The notes under the pieces are model-generated. The model was not told the DNA's origin. It worked only from the letters and a program-made list of their open reading frames with translations, and did no database searches. Of a stretch of DNA of 64,000 bases, positions 17,849 to 22,852 are shown in pieces. Positions within the stretch are counted from its first letter, which is position 1. Every line of letters starts with the position of its first letter. The position numbers and the translations under genes were made by a program. Source of the stretch: an uncultured Bacteroidales bacterium (GTDB lineage: Bacteria; Bacteroidota; Bacteroidia; Bacteroidales; Bacteroidaceae); NCBI GenBank assembly GCA_902799685.1, contig CADCBO010000023.1, positions 1-64,000 on the forward strand, written 5' to 3'.

Positions 17849-17857
17849 GTTTGTAGT

Positions 17858-17889
17858 TTTGCATTTGTCACCTTATTTATTTAATTTTG
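17858..17889 (+). promoter_or_regulatory. Promoter of the ftsY-rimO-HU transcript
   Basis: TTTG at 17858-17861, a 20-bp spacer and TAATTTTG at 17882-17889. The transcript would begin roughly 10-12 nt before the ftsY ATG at 17908, so the leader is very short. Confidence 0.75.
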
Positions 17890-17907
17890 CCGTATTCACC
17901 GAATAAT

Positions 17908-18867
17908 ATGGGACTGTTTTCATTTTTTTCCAAAGATAAGAAAGAGGTACTGGACAAAGGCCTGGAAAAGACCAAGACCAGCGTCTTCTCCAAAATAGCC
18001 CGCGCTGTGGCCGGAAAGACCACTGTAGATGACGAGGTGCTTGACAATCTGGAGGAGGTGCTCATAACATCGGACGTAGGTGTGGAGACTACACTTAAGA
18101 TAATCAAGCGTATCCAGGAGCGTGTGGCACGTGACAAATACATGGGAACTGCCGAATTGAACGGCATTCTGCGTGAGGAGATCTCGGCACTGCTTGTGGA
18201 AAACAATCCTGACGATGAAATGGAGCCTTTCTGCATTCCAGCCGGGCGTAAACCATATGTGGTGCTTGTGGTGGGAGTGAACGGAGTAGGCAAGACCACT
18301 ACCATAGGCAAACTGGCATACCAGTTCAAGAAACGCGGACTGAAGGTGATGCTGGGTGCCGCCGATACGTTCCGTGCCGCTGCCATAGAGCAGCTCCAGG
18401 AGTGGGGACGTAGGGTGGATGTTCCGGTGATAAGGCAGGAAATGGGATCGGACCCTGCATCCGTGGCGTATGATACTCTGAGTTCCGCCGTGGCTAATGA
18501 TGTGGATGTGGTACTGATAGATACCGCCGGACGTCTTCACAACAAGGTGGGACTGATGAACGAACTTACCAAGATACGCAACGTGATGAACAAGGTTGTG
18601 GAGGGCGCTCCCGATGATGTTCTGTTGGTATTGGACGGATCCACCGGTCAAAACGCATTTGAGCAGGCACGTCAGTTCACATTGGCCACCAAGGTTACCC
18701 AACTGGCCATCACCAAACTGGACGGAACGGCCAAGGGTGGTGTAGTGATTGGCATATCGGACCAGTTCAAAGTTCCTGTAAAATATGTAGGCCTGGGCGA
18801 AGGCATGGATAATCTGCAGGTGTTCAACAAGACTGAATTTGTGGATTCACTGTTCAAGATGGATTGA
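17908..18867 (+). CDS. ftsY: Signal recognition particle receptor
   Basis: FtsY docks SRP-ribosome complexes at the inner membrane. The 319-residue protein begins MGLFSFFSKDKKEV, a short amphipathic membrane-binding start. It has the NG domain with P-loop GVNGVGKTTTIGKLA, DTAGRLHNK and TKLDGTAKGG. I chose ATG 17908; the in-frame TTG at 17887 lies inside the -7 promoter box and cannot be used from this promoter. The acidic A domain of E. coli FtsY is absent, as in many bacteria. rimO follows after 3 bp. Confidence 0.96.
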   Translation: MGLFSFFSKDKKEVLDKGLEKTKTSVFSKIARAVAGKTTVDDEVLDNLEEVLITSDVGVETTLKIIKRIQERVARDKYMGTAELNGILREEISALLVENNPDDEMEPFCIPAGRKPYVVLVVGVNGVGKTTTIGKLAYQFKKRGLKVMLGAADTFRAAAIEQLQEWGRRVDVPVIRQEMGSDPASVAYDTLSSAVANDVDVVLIDTAGRLHNKVGLMNELTKIRNVMNKVVEGAPDDVLLVLDGSTGQNAFEQARQFTLATKVTQLAITKLDGTAKGGVVIGISDQFKVPVKYVGLGEGMDNLQVFNKTEFVDSLFKMD

Positions 18868-18870
18868 ATC

Positions 18871-20169
18871 ATGAGACACGGCACAGTGGATATAATTACA
18901 TTAGGCTGTTCTAAGAATCTTGTTGATTCTGAGAAACTTATGGCTCAATTTAGAGCCAATGGGCTTAGGGTTAGACATGATCCGGAAAAAGTCAGTGCCG
19001 AAACTGTGATAATAAACACATGCGGTTTTATAGGCGATGCACAGGAAGAATCAATCAATATGATCCTGGAGTGCGGAGCACTGAAAAAGGCCGGTAAGAT
19101 TGGCCGATTGTATGTGATGGGATGCCTGTCGCAGAAATTCCATAAGGAGCTTATGGCCGAGATTCCTGAAGCAGATGGCTGGTACGGCAAGTTCGACTGG
19201 AGCGGGATCCTTAAGGAGATGGGACGTGAATGGCATGGCGAGATAGAGAATGACCGTATCATAACCACTCCGTCTCATTATGCCTATCTCAAGATTGCCG
19301 AGGGATGCAACCGCGGTTGCGCCTATTGTGCAATTCCGCTCATGACAGGAAAGTACCGGTCACGCAGCCAGGACGATATATTGGACGAAGCACGCAGACT
19401 GGTTTCAAAAGGCGTTAAGGAGATACAACTGATAGCCCAGGACCTTACATATTACGGTAAGGACATGGCAGGTAAACCTGTTATTGCTGAACTTGTACAG
19501 CGTCTGTCAGATATTCCGGGTGTAGAGTGGTTGCGTCTTCATTATGGCTATCCTAATGATTTCCCGATGGACCTGTTGCCTGTGATGCGTGAGCGTGACA
19601 ATGTATGCAAGTATATGGATATAGCTCTGCAGCATATAAGTGATCCGGTATTGAAGCGCATGCGCCGCAACATCACCGCTCAGGAGACCCGTGAACTGCT
19701 TAACCATATCCGCCAGGAGGTGCCGGGCATACACCTGCGCACCACTTTGATGGTCGGATTCCCGGGTGAAACCGATGATGATTTCAACCGCTTGCTGGAT
19801 TTTGTAAAGGAACAGCGGTTTGAACGCATGGGTGCTTTTGCATACTCCGAGGTGGAGGGCACGTATTCTGCCATTCACTACAAAGATGACATATCAGATG
19901 ATGTAAAGCAGGCTCGCCTGTCACGGCTCATGCGTGTACAGCAGGAAATAGCCGAATCCATAAGTGAGGCTAAGGTGGGCAAGACCTACAAGACCATTAT
20001 TGACCGTTTGGAAGGGGATTATTATGTGGGACGCACAGAGTTTGATTCACCCGAAGTGGATCCGGAGGTGCTCATCAAAGCCGATTGCAGGCTTGCAACG
20101 GGTAAATTCCATAACGTGAGGGTTACCCGGGCTGATGCATTTGACTTATACGGTATCATAGACAAATAA
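18871..20169 (+). CDS. rimO: Ribosomal protein S12 methylthiotransferase
   Basis: RimO is a radical-SAM enzyme with two [4Fe-4S] clusters that adds a methylthio group to an Asp of ribosomal protein S12. The N-terminal MTTase domain has TLGCSKNLVDSE and CGFIGDA cysteines plus VMGCLSQK. The radical-SAM motif is EGCNRGCAYCAIP (CxxxCxxC), and a C-terminal TRAM-like domain follows. It is 432 residues, full length. It is packed 3 bp after ftsY and 14 bp before the HU gene, in one transcription unit. Confidence 0.96.
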   Translation: MRHGTVDIITLGCSKNLVDSEKLMAQFRANGLRVRHDPEKVSAETVIINTCGFIGDAQEESINMILECGALKKAGKIGRLYVMGCLSQKFHKELMAEIPEADGWYGKFDWSGILKEMGREWHGEIENDRIITTPSHYAYLKIAEGCNRGCAYCAIPLMTGKYRSRSQDDILDEARRLVSKGVKEIQLIAQDLTYYGKDMAGKPVIAELVQRLSDIPGVEWLRLHYGYPNDFPMDLLPVMRERDNVCKYMDIALQHISDPVLKRMRRNITAQETRELLNHIRQEVPGIHLRTTLMVGFPGETDDDFNRLLDFVKEQRFERMGAFAYSEVEGTYSAIHYKDDISDDVKQARLSRLMRVQQEIAESISEAKVGKTYKTIIDRLEGDYYVGRTEFDSPEVDPEVLIKADCRLATGKFHNVRVTRADAFDLYGIIDK

Positions 20170-20465: not shown

Positions 20466-21695
20466 ATGGATAAGAAGATAAACCTGACACAGCTTGCCGA
20501 CCTTCTGTCACAAGCGGGCGGAATGTCAAAATCGGCATCAGAGCAGTTCGTAAAGAACTTTTTTGAAATAATTTCCCAGAGTGTCCTTTCTGATGGTCTT
20601 GTCAAGGTCAAGGGCTTGGGCACTTTCAAACTGTTGCAGATGGAAGACCGCGAGAGCGTGAACGTGAACACAGGCGAGCGTTTCACCATCGAGGGACATC
20701 AGAAAATCTCCTTTACTCCCGACGCTGACCTTAAGGAGGTTATCAACAAACCTTTTGCAGCCTTTGAGACTGTAGAAATCACTTCTGAACAGGCTGATAC
20801 CCTGGCAAGTATGAATACTGTCAGCCAATTGGAAGAGGAGTCGGATGAATCAACTGATGATGTTGCCAAAGAGGATAAACCTGTACAAGATAAAGAGAAA
20901 GCTACGATTGCTGTTGAGGATGTTCCGCTTGAATCGGGTAATGGCAATGATAACGATAATGACGTGAAAGTAGAGCCTACAGTAAAGGAAGTGACGCAGA
21001 AGAGAGGTGTCCGTTTCCTTATCAAGTTGCTTATATGGATCCTGGCTATCCTTCTTATTGTTCCGCTTGCGCTATATCTTTTCTGGCCGTTGATAGGTAA
21101 CAGTGTACTTGAGTATGTGGAACGTGACATTAAAAACAGGAACAAGACGGAATATGTGGCAGATTCGACCGGAAACGTGTCCAAACCTGTCAAAGAAACA
21201 GTTCCCGTCAACCCGCAGCCGTCCAAGCCGGTAGATCAACCTCAGGAGAAGCCTTCCCAGGCTACTCCGGCAGAACAACCTGCCCAACCTGAGCCGTCTG
21301 TAACTGTACCTGCACAACAGCAGACTCAGGTCCAGACCACTCCTGCACAGCAGCCTTCAAAGCCTGAGCCTGCTGCAACAACTCCTGCCAAACCCGCAGC
21401 AAGTAGCGTTACAACCGGACAGGGTACTTCCGGTTATCCCGCAGTGAAGCTCAACAGCGCTGATTCAGCCAAGGACCTTAAGGACTTTACAGAGGCTGAT
21501 ACTGTGAACTTCATTATGGATGGCGATCTGACAGTCCATACGCTTAAGAGCGATGAGACTATTACAAAGCTTGCTCTCAAGTACTACGGAACCAAGAAAC
21601 TCTGGCCGTACATAGTAAAATACAATAACGTCAAGGATGCCTCCAAACTTCATGAGGGCGCCAAGATAAGGATACCTGTACTTAAGGCAAAATGA
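20466..21695 (+). CDS. Membrane-spanning protein: HU-like DNA-binding domain, TM segment, LysM domain
   Basis: Three parts are visible in 409 residues. Residues ~1-95 are an HU-like domain (VKVKGLGTFKLLQMEDRESV). An acidic linker follows, then one hydrophobic segment at ~183-210 preceded by KRGVRFLIK. A Pro/Gln-rich stretch (~240-320) leads to a LysM domain (~355-405, TVHTLKSDETITKLALKYYG). The positive charges before the membrane segment predict an N-in orientation, with HU in the cytoplasm and LysM in the periplasm against peptidoglycan. That would make it a tether from nucleoid to cell wall; this is inference from architecture. It is co-transcribed with the HU gene, rimO and ftsY. Confidence 0.85.
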   Translation: MDKKINLTQLADLLSQAGGMSKSASEQFVKNFFEIISQSVLSDGLVKVKGLGTFKLLQMEDRESVNVNTGERFTIEGHQKISFTPDADLKEVINKPFAAFETVEITSEQADTLASMNTVSQLEEESDESTDDVAKEDKPVQDKEKATIAVEDVPLESGNGNDNDNDVKVEPTVKEVTQKRGVRFLIKLLIWILAILLIVPLALYLFWPLIGNSVLEYVERDIKNRNKTEYVADSTGNVSKPVKETVPVNPQPSKPVDQPQEKPSQATPAEQPAQPEPSVTVPAQQQTQVQTTPAQQPSKPEPAATTPAKPAASSVTTGQGTSGYPAVKLNSADSAKDLKDFTEADTVNFIMDGDLTVHTLKSDETITKLALKYYGTKKLWPYIVKYNNVKDASKLHEGAKIRIPVLKAK

Positions 21696-21788: not shown

Positions 21789-21796
21789 TATATTTG
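21789..21796 (+). promoter_or_regulatory. -7 box upstream of moxR/bat operon
   Basis: TATATTTG matches TAnnTTTG and lies 60 bp before the moxR ATG. A TTTT run near 21758 is the only candidate upstream element and is badly spaced. Confidence 0.45.
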
Positions 21797-21856: not shown

Positions 21857-22852
21857 ATGAGTGAAAACGTTGACATTAAGGAGCTGAATGAGCGCATAGA
21901 ACAACAGAGTGCGTTCGTTACCAACCTGATGGCCGGTATGGATCAGGTTATTGTGGGACAGAAACATCTTGTGGAGTCATTGCTTATAGGACTTCTGTCC
22001 GACGGCCATATTTTGCTGGAAGGTGTGCCTGGCCTGGCCAAGACGCTTGCCATCAAGACCCTCGCGTCATTGATAGACGCAAGTTTCAACCGCATACAGT
22101 TTACCCCTGACCTTCTGCCAGCCGATGTGGTTGGTACGATGATATACAGTCAGAAAGATGAGACCTTCATACCCAAGAAAGGCCCCGTGTTCGCAAACTT
22201 CATCCTTGCCGATGAGATAAACCGTGCTCCTGCCAAGGTACAAAGCGCATTGCTTGAGGCTATGCAGGAGCGTCAGGTTACATTGGGCGGCGATACATTC
22301 AAGTTGCCGCGTCCTTTCCTGGTAATGGCCACACAGAACCCGATAGAGCAGGAGGGTACATATCCTCTGCCCGAGGCTCAGGTGGACCGTTTCATGCTAA
22401 AGGCAGTGATTGACTACCCCAGGATTGAGGAAGAGAAGAAGATCATACATCAGCAGATTCATCACGAGACAGGTACAGTAAAGCCTGTTATGAACACAGA
22501 TGACATAATCGAGGCTCGCAAGGTGGTGGATATGGTCTATCTGGATGAGAAGATAGAGCAATATATTGCTGATATCGTGTTTGCCACACGTTATCCCGAT
22601 AAATATGGTTTGAAGGAGATAAAGGAGCTCATATCATTCGGCGGTTCTCCGCGTGCATCCATAAATTTGGCTCTTGCAGCCCGCTCATACGCATTCATAA
22701 AGCGCAGAGGTTATGTCGTGCCTGAGGATGTCCGCGCCATAGCACATGATGTACTGCGTCATCGTATCGGACTCACATATGAGGCCGAGGCTACCAACGT
22801 GACTCAGGACGAGCTTGTAAGCCGCATCTTGAACAAGGTTGAAGTACCTTGA
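21857..22852 (+). CDS. MoxR family AAA+ ATPase
   Basis: This 331-residue ATPase has Walker A GVPGLAKT, Walker B region ILADEINRAPAKVQSALLEAMQE and the arginine-containing sensor segments of MoxR proteins. MoxR ATPases act as chaperone-like partners of von Willebrand factor A (VWA) proteins encoded beside them. Here it leads a cluster with a DUF58 protein, a membrane protein and batA-batE, the Bacteroidetes aerotolerance operon. Length is standard. Confidence 0.94.
   Translation: MSENVDIKELNERIEQQSAFVTNLMAGMDQVIVGQKHLVESLLIGLLSDGHILLEGVPGLAKTLAIKTLASLIDASFNRIQFTPDLLPADVVGTMIYSQKDETFIPKKGPVFANFILADEINRAPAKVQSALLEAMQERQVTLGGDTFKLPRPFLVMATQNPIEQEGTYPLPEAQVDRFMLKAVIDYPRIEEEKKIIHQQIHHETGTVKPVMNTDDIIEARKVVDMVYLDEKIEQYIADIVFATRYPDKYGLKEIKELISFGGSPRASINLALAARSYAFIKRRGYVVPEDVRAIAHDVLRHRIGLTYEAEATNVTQDELVSRILNKVEVP

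Follow-up and report, generated by a model that had tools for sequence, protein, structure and literature searches.

A membrane-anchored HU-LysM protein and its companion HU as a candidate strap between nucleoid and cell wall in Bacteroidota

How bacteria attach the nucleoid to their envelope has long been an open question; few proteins are known to touch both DNA and the cell wall. A 64,000-nucleotide stretch of DNA from an uncultured Bacteroidales bacterium (positions 1 to 64,000 of contig CADCBO010000023.1, assembly GCA_902799685.1; hereafter the window) raises this question with a gene whose product, here called the tether, unites an HU domain, a single transmembrane (TM) helix and a C-terminal LysM domain. 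A preliminary description of the sequence had read this protein as a bridge between nucleoid and peptidoglycan. A bridge is still the best reading, amended in that the tether HU is probably half of the DNA-binding unit, its partner being the small HU (the companion) encoded upstream, whose stop lies 9 bases before the tether start. We therefore favor, with moderate confidence, a nucleoid-to-wall strap in which an HU-HU heterodimer would hold DNA and the LysM domain would hold peptidoglycan.

The domain content of the tether agrees with the preliminary description. Against PF00216 the tether scored 66.1 bits, over the Pfam cut-off of 22.4, and this family was matched by 46/46 diverse tethers at E 0.01; IHF and HU chains of the Protein Data Bank (PDB) were matched by the profile of the tether HU. 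In the AlphaFold model, derived from 22 aligned sequences with the window's own among them, superposition identified the N-terminus as an HU fold, with a helix-helix element, strands bearing a long arm and a C-terminal helix; this one-chain model would be compatible with a dimerizing, DNA-bending HU. Of the CCDC81-type HU families, PF18175 reached 13.2 bits (cut-off 35) and PF18174 was not among the Pfam matches. Residues 97-187 carry a net charge of -13, and the predicted local distance difference test score (pLDDT) falls below 50 at residues 121-175, the whole model having a pLDDT of 63.1, a predicted template modeling score of 0.29 and disordered linkers. One hydrophobic segment was found (residues 188-206), and the long Pro/Gln linker described earlier corresponds to a disordered stretch rich in Pro, Gln, Ala and Thr before the LysM domain.

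The C-terminus was well modeled (block pLDDT of 84-92 from residue 331). As a single sequence it remained below the Pfam LysM threshold (16.9 bits, cut-off 20.9), and the Pfam model reached E 0.01 in just 9/46 tether members. A profile from 18 homologous C-terminal ends, however, matched LysM chains of the PDB, first the potassium-binding protein Kbp (6.7e-12) and also the glycan- or wall-associated chains 4b8v and SafA 7r1l. The modeled end adopts the beta-alpha-alpha-beta LysM fold and superposes on solved LysM-domain chains, 4uz3 included among the matches listed. It thus looks, from sequence comparison, like a divergent rather than a standard LysM. SPOR was absent among the Pfam matches of the tether at E 1, the C-terminus being LysM-like instead, and the Pfam scan gave no TPR match.

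This architecture is kept across homologues. With a LysM profile built partly from the same tether sequences as it scored, 120/122 distinct tethers were matched, and the order HU, TM, LysM held in 120/120; the two without a match are cut by the locus end (L060) or diverged (L058), and the broken gene of genome G268 stands outside the 122. Exactly one TM segment was predicted in 117 of the 120, two in two, and none over threshold in one. Between TM and LysM the spacer has a median length of 84.5 residues (range 48-178). Since the N-side flank of the TM segment is the more positive in 88/120, an N-in topology is likely, as the preliminary description had supposed; the flanks are equal in 13 and the N-side is less positive in 19.

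A short HU gene lies immediately 5' of the tether in 83/84 distinct loci. In the window, the tether HU has an isoelectric point (pI) of 5.8 and a net charge of -1, and the companion a pI of 9.7 and a net charge of +5; the companion profile also matched IHF in the PDB. The arm-tip proline of HU and IHF intercalates into DNA, although it is not universal in this superfamily, TF1 differing too. The tether arm lacks a proline of this type, reading NVNTG against NPTTG in the companion. In most Bacteroidales, over a comparison of 96 rows that includes some near-repeats, the tether likewise carries NV at the HU/IHF NP position and the companion a Pro tip, with the proline present in 27/27 aligned Bacteroidales companions. 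The companion is more positive than the tether HU in 29/30 pairs at genus or family level and 27/29 at order level, and in 11/24 pairs of f135, a family of another class (83 pairs). A general rule that the companion is the basic partner thus fails in f135, where the tether retains NP and the companion arm is of an unusual, NPHY type; nor is a Pro-to-Val change general in tethers, as f135 and some Bacteroidales tethers retain Pro. In the window pair it is the companion that has the canonical arm tip and the bulk of the positive charge, so that the tether HU probably serves mainly as the coupling half.

The pair was followed through one genus (g14, that of genome G049), where it was matched in 28/30 genomes, the two others being 54% and 65% complete; companion and tether were both present in 28/28. 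In four of these genomes (G049, G753, G754 and G760) the two are fused in a single open reading frame (ORF). Counting an arm as deleted when at least 8 of its 22 columns are gone, we found deletion in 11/28 tethers, the four fusions all among them, versus 0/28 companions (Fisher p 3e-4, a guide only, as the genomes are related). Outside g14, the tether of G331 is armless too, and its companion arm lacks NP. Fusion and one-sided decay would be expected if the two chains form one unit.

Given the near-neutral tether HU, the basic companion, the Val arm tip, the armless relatives and the fusions, the DNA-binding unit is most likely a heterodimer of the tether HU with the upstream HU. Placing DNA binding in residues 1-95 of the tether, as the preliminary description did, is for the same reasons probably incomplete; that description mentioned the upstream HU solely as a gene co-transcribed with the tether. 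We hold the companion-tether heterodimer itself to be likely, with good confidence, and wall binding by the LysM domain likely with confidence only slightly lower. Some observations nevertheless weigh against this reading. Companions do not always retain the arm-tip proline: it is gone from 6/28 in g14 (22/28 retain it), and five of these six stand beside an armless tether, which counts against a simple division of labor between the HU halves. It is accordingly less certain that the HU-HU unit always grips DNA strongly, and the balance shifts slightly from the strap toward a protein-binding scaffold.

In the proposed mechanism, the upstream gene would supply a small HU, with which the N-terminal HU of the tether would pair into an IHF-like heterodimer gripping DNA on the cytoplasmic side of the inner membrane. 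A flexible acidic linker would lead to the single, N-in membrane helix, a mostly disordered spacer would extend outward, and the terminal LysM would hold peptidoglycan. The whole may serve to hold, space or segregate the nucleoid.

How widespread such proteins are, a matter that the preliminary description left to a domain search, is answered in part by profile searches; the 44 tethers whose HU domains make up profile A3, and the 46 of set A5, were picked by hand from 84 distinct loci. Tethers were called by A3 score and ORF length: they reached A3 E values up to 2.1e-23 in frames of 313-726 aa, bar one broken, while ordinary HUs have about 95 aa. In a draw of 295 Bacteroidales genomes, at least 45 carried a tether by profile, under 16 family labels; recognition of those of G305, G331 and G049 by locus inspection brings this to at least 48/295. 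A phylum-wide draw gave at least 45/392 (5 Bacteroidales and 40 f135), the latter being at least 40 of the 47 genomes listed for that family. A cut at E 1e-20 missed diverged, armless and fused tethers, which the other searches and locus inspection recovered. The companion profile matched 44/295 Bacteroidales genomes, 42 in common with the tether list, and in these 42 the two genes share a strand, their profile matches separated by -2 to 17 bases; locus inspection placed a companion next to the tether in G105, G193, G268, G305 and G331. Each of the 47 unfused tethers detected in the 295 genomes thus has an adjoining companion, the 48th (G049) being one ORF. The G268 tether (L164 690-1720, minus strand) is split over two overlapping frames, one encoding the HU and the second the TM-LysM part, through either decay or assembly error.

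In the tree, built from 84 HU domains over only 98 columns, the 33 tethers form one group (branch values 100/96) and the 33 companions another (100/99), while a third (81/91) comprises 16/18 ordinary HUs. Two divergent HUs branch with the tethers (99/83), and one of the two belongs to the window's genome. This one, L191 (G000:C18:12139-12805), is the only other HU found in that genome; its arm tip reads RDILKNTT, not RNPxTG, and its place in the tree, adjoining the tethers, is shared with the second divergent HU. The companions of two Bacteroidales pairs, L163 and L165, group with f135 companions (95/90), and in the tether part of the tree L163, L165 and the f135 rows meet at an open fork. Their placement possibly reflects horizontal transfer or old paralogy.

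The features of the window and the natural fusions are collected in Table 1, where the names of the neighboring genes are those that their sequences suggest. Relatives of the window RimO and of the MoxR-type gene were each found in 30/30 of the loci L004-L033, which comprise the window and loci from its genus or family, and a MoxR-type gene lies 3' of the tether in many order-level loci too; the f135 stretches that were examined contained no relative of MoxR. Because of the gap that separates it from the tether, the MoxR-type gene is perhaps a separate transcription unit. A promoter-like TANNTTTG site is found at 21789-21796, about 60 bases 5' of this gene, and two further TANNTTTG sites lie close to the FtsY start, at 17854 and 17882, positions that would fit an FtsY-RimO-HU-tether transcription unit. 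Enrichment of TANNTTTG in the window is not clear (46 against 38.5 +/- 6.4, with 12 shuffles reaching 46).

Table 1. Positions of the tether, its companion, neighboring genes and natural fusions (window coordinates unless a locus is named)
Feature	Position	Strand	Remarks
FtsY	17887-18867	+	upstream neighbor
RimO	18871-20169	+	upstream neighbor; 3 nt after FtsY, 14 nt before companion HU
Companion HU gene, 90 aa	20184..20456	+	Pfam HU E 1.1e-20, 74 bits; pI 9.7; arm tip NPTTG
Tether gene	20466..21695	+	409 aa: HU, acidic linker, one TM helix, Pro/Gln-rich linker, LysM
Tether HU domain, residues 7-94	20484..20747	+	PF00216 E 3.5e-18; IHF and HU PDB matches; fold
Tether arm tip NVNTG, residues 66-70	20661..20675	+	Val at HU/IHF Pro position
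Acidic, mainly disordered predicted cytoplasmic linker, residues 97-179	20754..21002	+	charge; pLDDT
Single TM helix, residues 188-206	21027..21083	+	hydropathy KD 2.91; AlphaFold helix 180-205
Predicted periplasmic pre-LysM part, residues 207-348	21084..21509	+	helix 207-227, then Pro/Gln/Ala/Thr-rich disorder
LysM domain, residues 358-404	21537..21677	+	Pfam E 0.0063, below cut-off; homologue profile 6.7e-12; fold
MoxR-type ATPase gene	21857..22852	+	downstream of tether, 161-nt gap
Natural fusions, companion HU + armless tether HU + TM + LysM	L160 1476-2561; L204 1504-2688; L206 1159-2316; L213 892-2148		g14

Several other explanations were weighed against the strap. The HU pair could be a protein-binding scaffold rather than a DNA binder, the module positioning proteins at the envelope, and a protein-binding role has reportedly been proposed for CCDC81-type HU domains. 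The companion arm kept throughout g14, its proline retained there in most genomes and in every aligned Bacteroidales companion, and the basic character of the companion in most Bacteroidales pairs make this unlikely. Slightly more doubtful still is a membrane-bound regulator resembling ToxR or CadC, whose LysM would sense wall glycans or muropeptides while the HU half altered the architecture of promoter DNA. A single chain does unite a DNA-binding-type domain, one TM and an extracytoplasmic domain of ligand-binding type, and the tether gene lies 5' of a MoxR-type gene in all genus and family loci and in many of the order; but the long disordered spacers would suit a leash more than the relay of a signal, the f135 stretches examined showed no MoxR relative, and HU generally bends DNA with weak specificity rather than acting as a promoter-specific factor.

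We give less weight again to the possibility that the LysM domain is not outside, or binds another ligand such as K+ or a different glycan, so that the protein merely fixes the HU pair to the membrane. Kbp is its best PDB relative by profile, yet the glycan- or wall-associated chains 4b8v, SafA and 4uz3 match too, and both the long Pro/Gln-rich spacer and the prevailing charge of the TM flanks argue for an outward LysM. That the two HU genes are mere neighbors forming homodimers, an accident of the operon, appears very improbable: both parts have the HU fold and HU homodimers are common, but the single-gene fusions, the one-sided arm loss and the near-invariant adjacency all speak against it.

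The strap can be set beside known systems. Burroughs and co-workers reportedly proposed in 2017 in Cell Cycle that HU-CCDC81_bac-TM-SPOR proteins of Bacteroidales (PF18174 and PF18175) are chromosome-to-wall tethers. Like these, the LysM module has an HU-type pair, one TM and a C-terminal peptidoglycan-type domain; unlike them, with both CCDC81-type HU domains in one chain with SPOR, it has HU domains of the ordinary type, split between two genes. Two loci recovered here, L195 and L197, carry both CCDC81 HU domains and SPOR (Pfam scan), with TM segments in the members examined. PF18174 was matched at E 1e-3 in 67/77 genomes searched, 65 of the 67 over the Pfam cut-off: 30/38 with the LysM tether, showing that the two systems coexist, and 37/39 without a found tether, two of these 39 being classed so by a single search only. 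The window's genome, which is 86% complete, is among the eight tether genomes without a match, nothing in it exceeding the PF18174 cut-off, and four genomes of family f29 (G088, G190, G271 and G332) carry the LysM tether yet no PF18174 at E 1e-3, unlike most searched. These proteins are the nearest known kind, from which the module differs in its LysM, its ordinary HU and its two-gene HU pair. No description of an HU-TM-LysM protein was found in the literature, a weak sign of novelty, as open-licence papers only were covered; one paper lists HU and LysM proteins as separate entries of a gene table.

With IHF, an alpha/beta heterodimer, the pair shares two diverged HU-fold chains proposed as one DNA-binding body; it differs in that one chain bears a membrane helix and LysM and has an arm tip without Pro, or no arm in some relatives. 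RocS of Streptococcus pneumoniae is membrane-anchored and, to our knowledge, without HU or LysM, whereas the tether, from a different phylum, has both. RocS is described as a chromosome partitioning protein (PMC11500499). HubP/FimV of Vibrio has a single TM, a periplasmic LysM required for polar localization, and a large, acidic cytosolic region that contains repeats and ends in a C-terminal TPR, this cytoplasmic part positioning the chromosome 1 origin via ParA1 (PMC8789113). HubP, sharing a single TM and LysM with the tether, thus provides a chromosome anchor in which LysM is known to work, although it acts via ParA1 rather than via an HU domain and shows the reverse of the HU-TM-LysM order.

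More broadly, and tentatively, at a confidence just short of even, we suggest that parts of Bacteroidota possess a dedicated trans-envelope strap: a half-soluble, half-anchored IHF-like heterodimer that would bind DNA broadly and be fixed by LysM, in many genomes beside the CCDC81-HU-TM-SPOR strap, with the DNA grip moved onto the companion or the anchored half by lineage and the genes at times fused. If this is true, these bacteria would have a simple two-protein link between chromosome and wall, open to tests on deletion strains and on the purified components, and the natural fusions and arm deletions already point to the parts worth testing. HU/IHF, usually soluble, would then be divided between cytoplasm and membrane.
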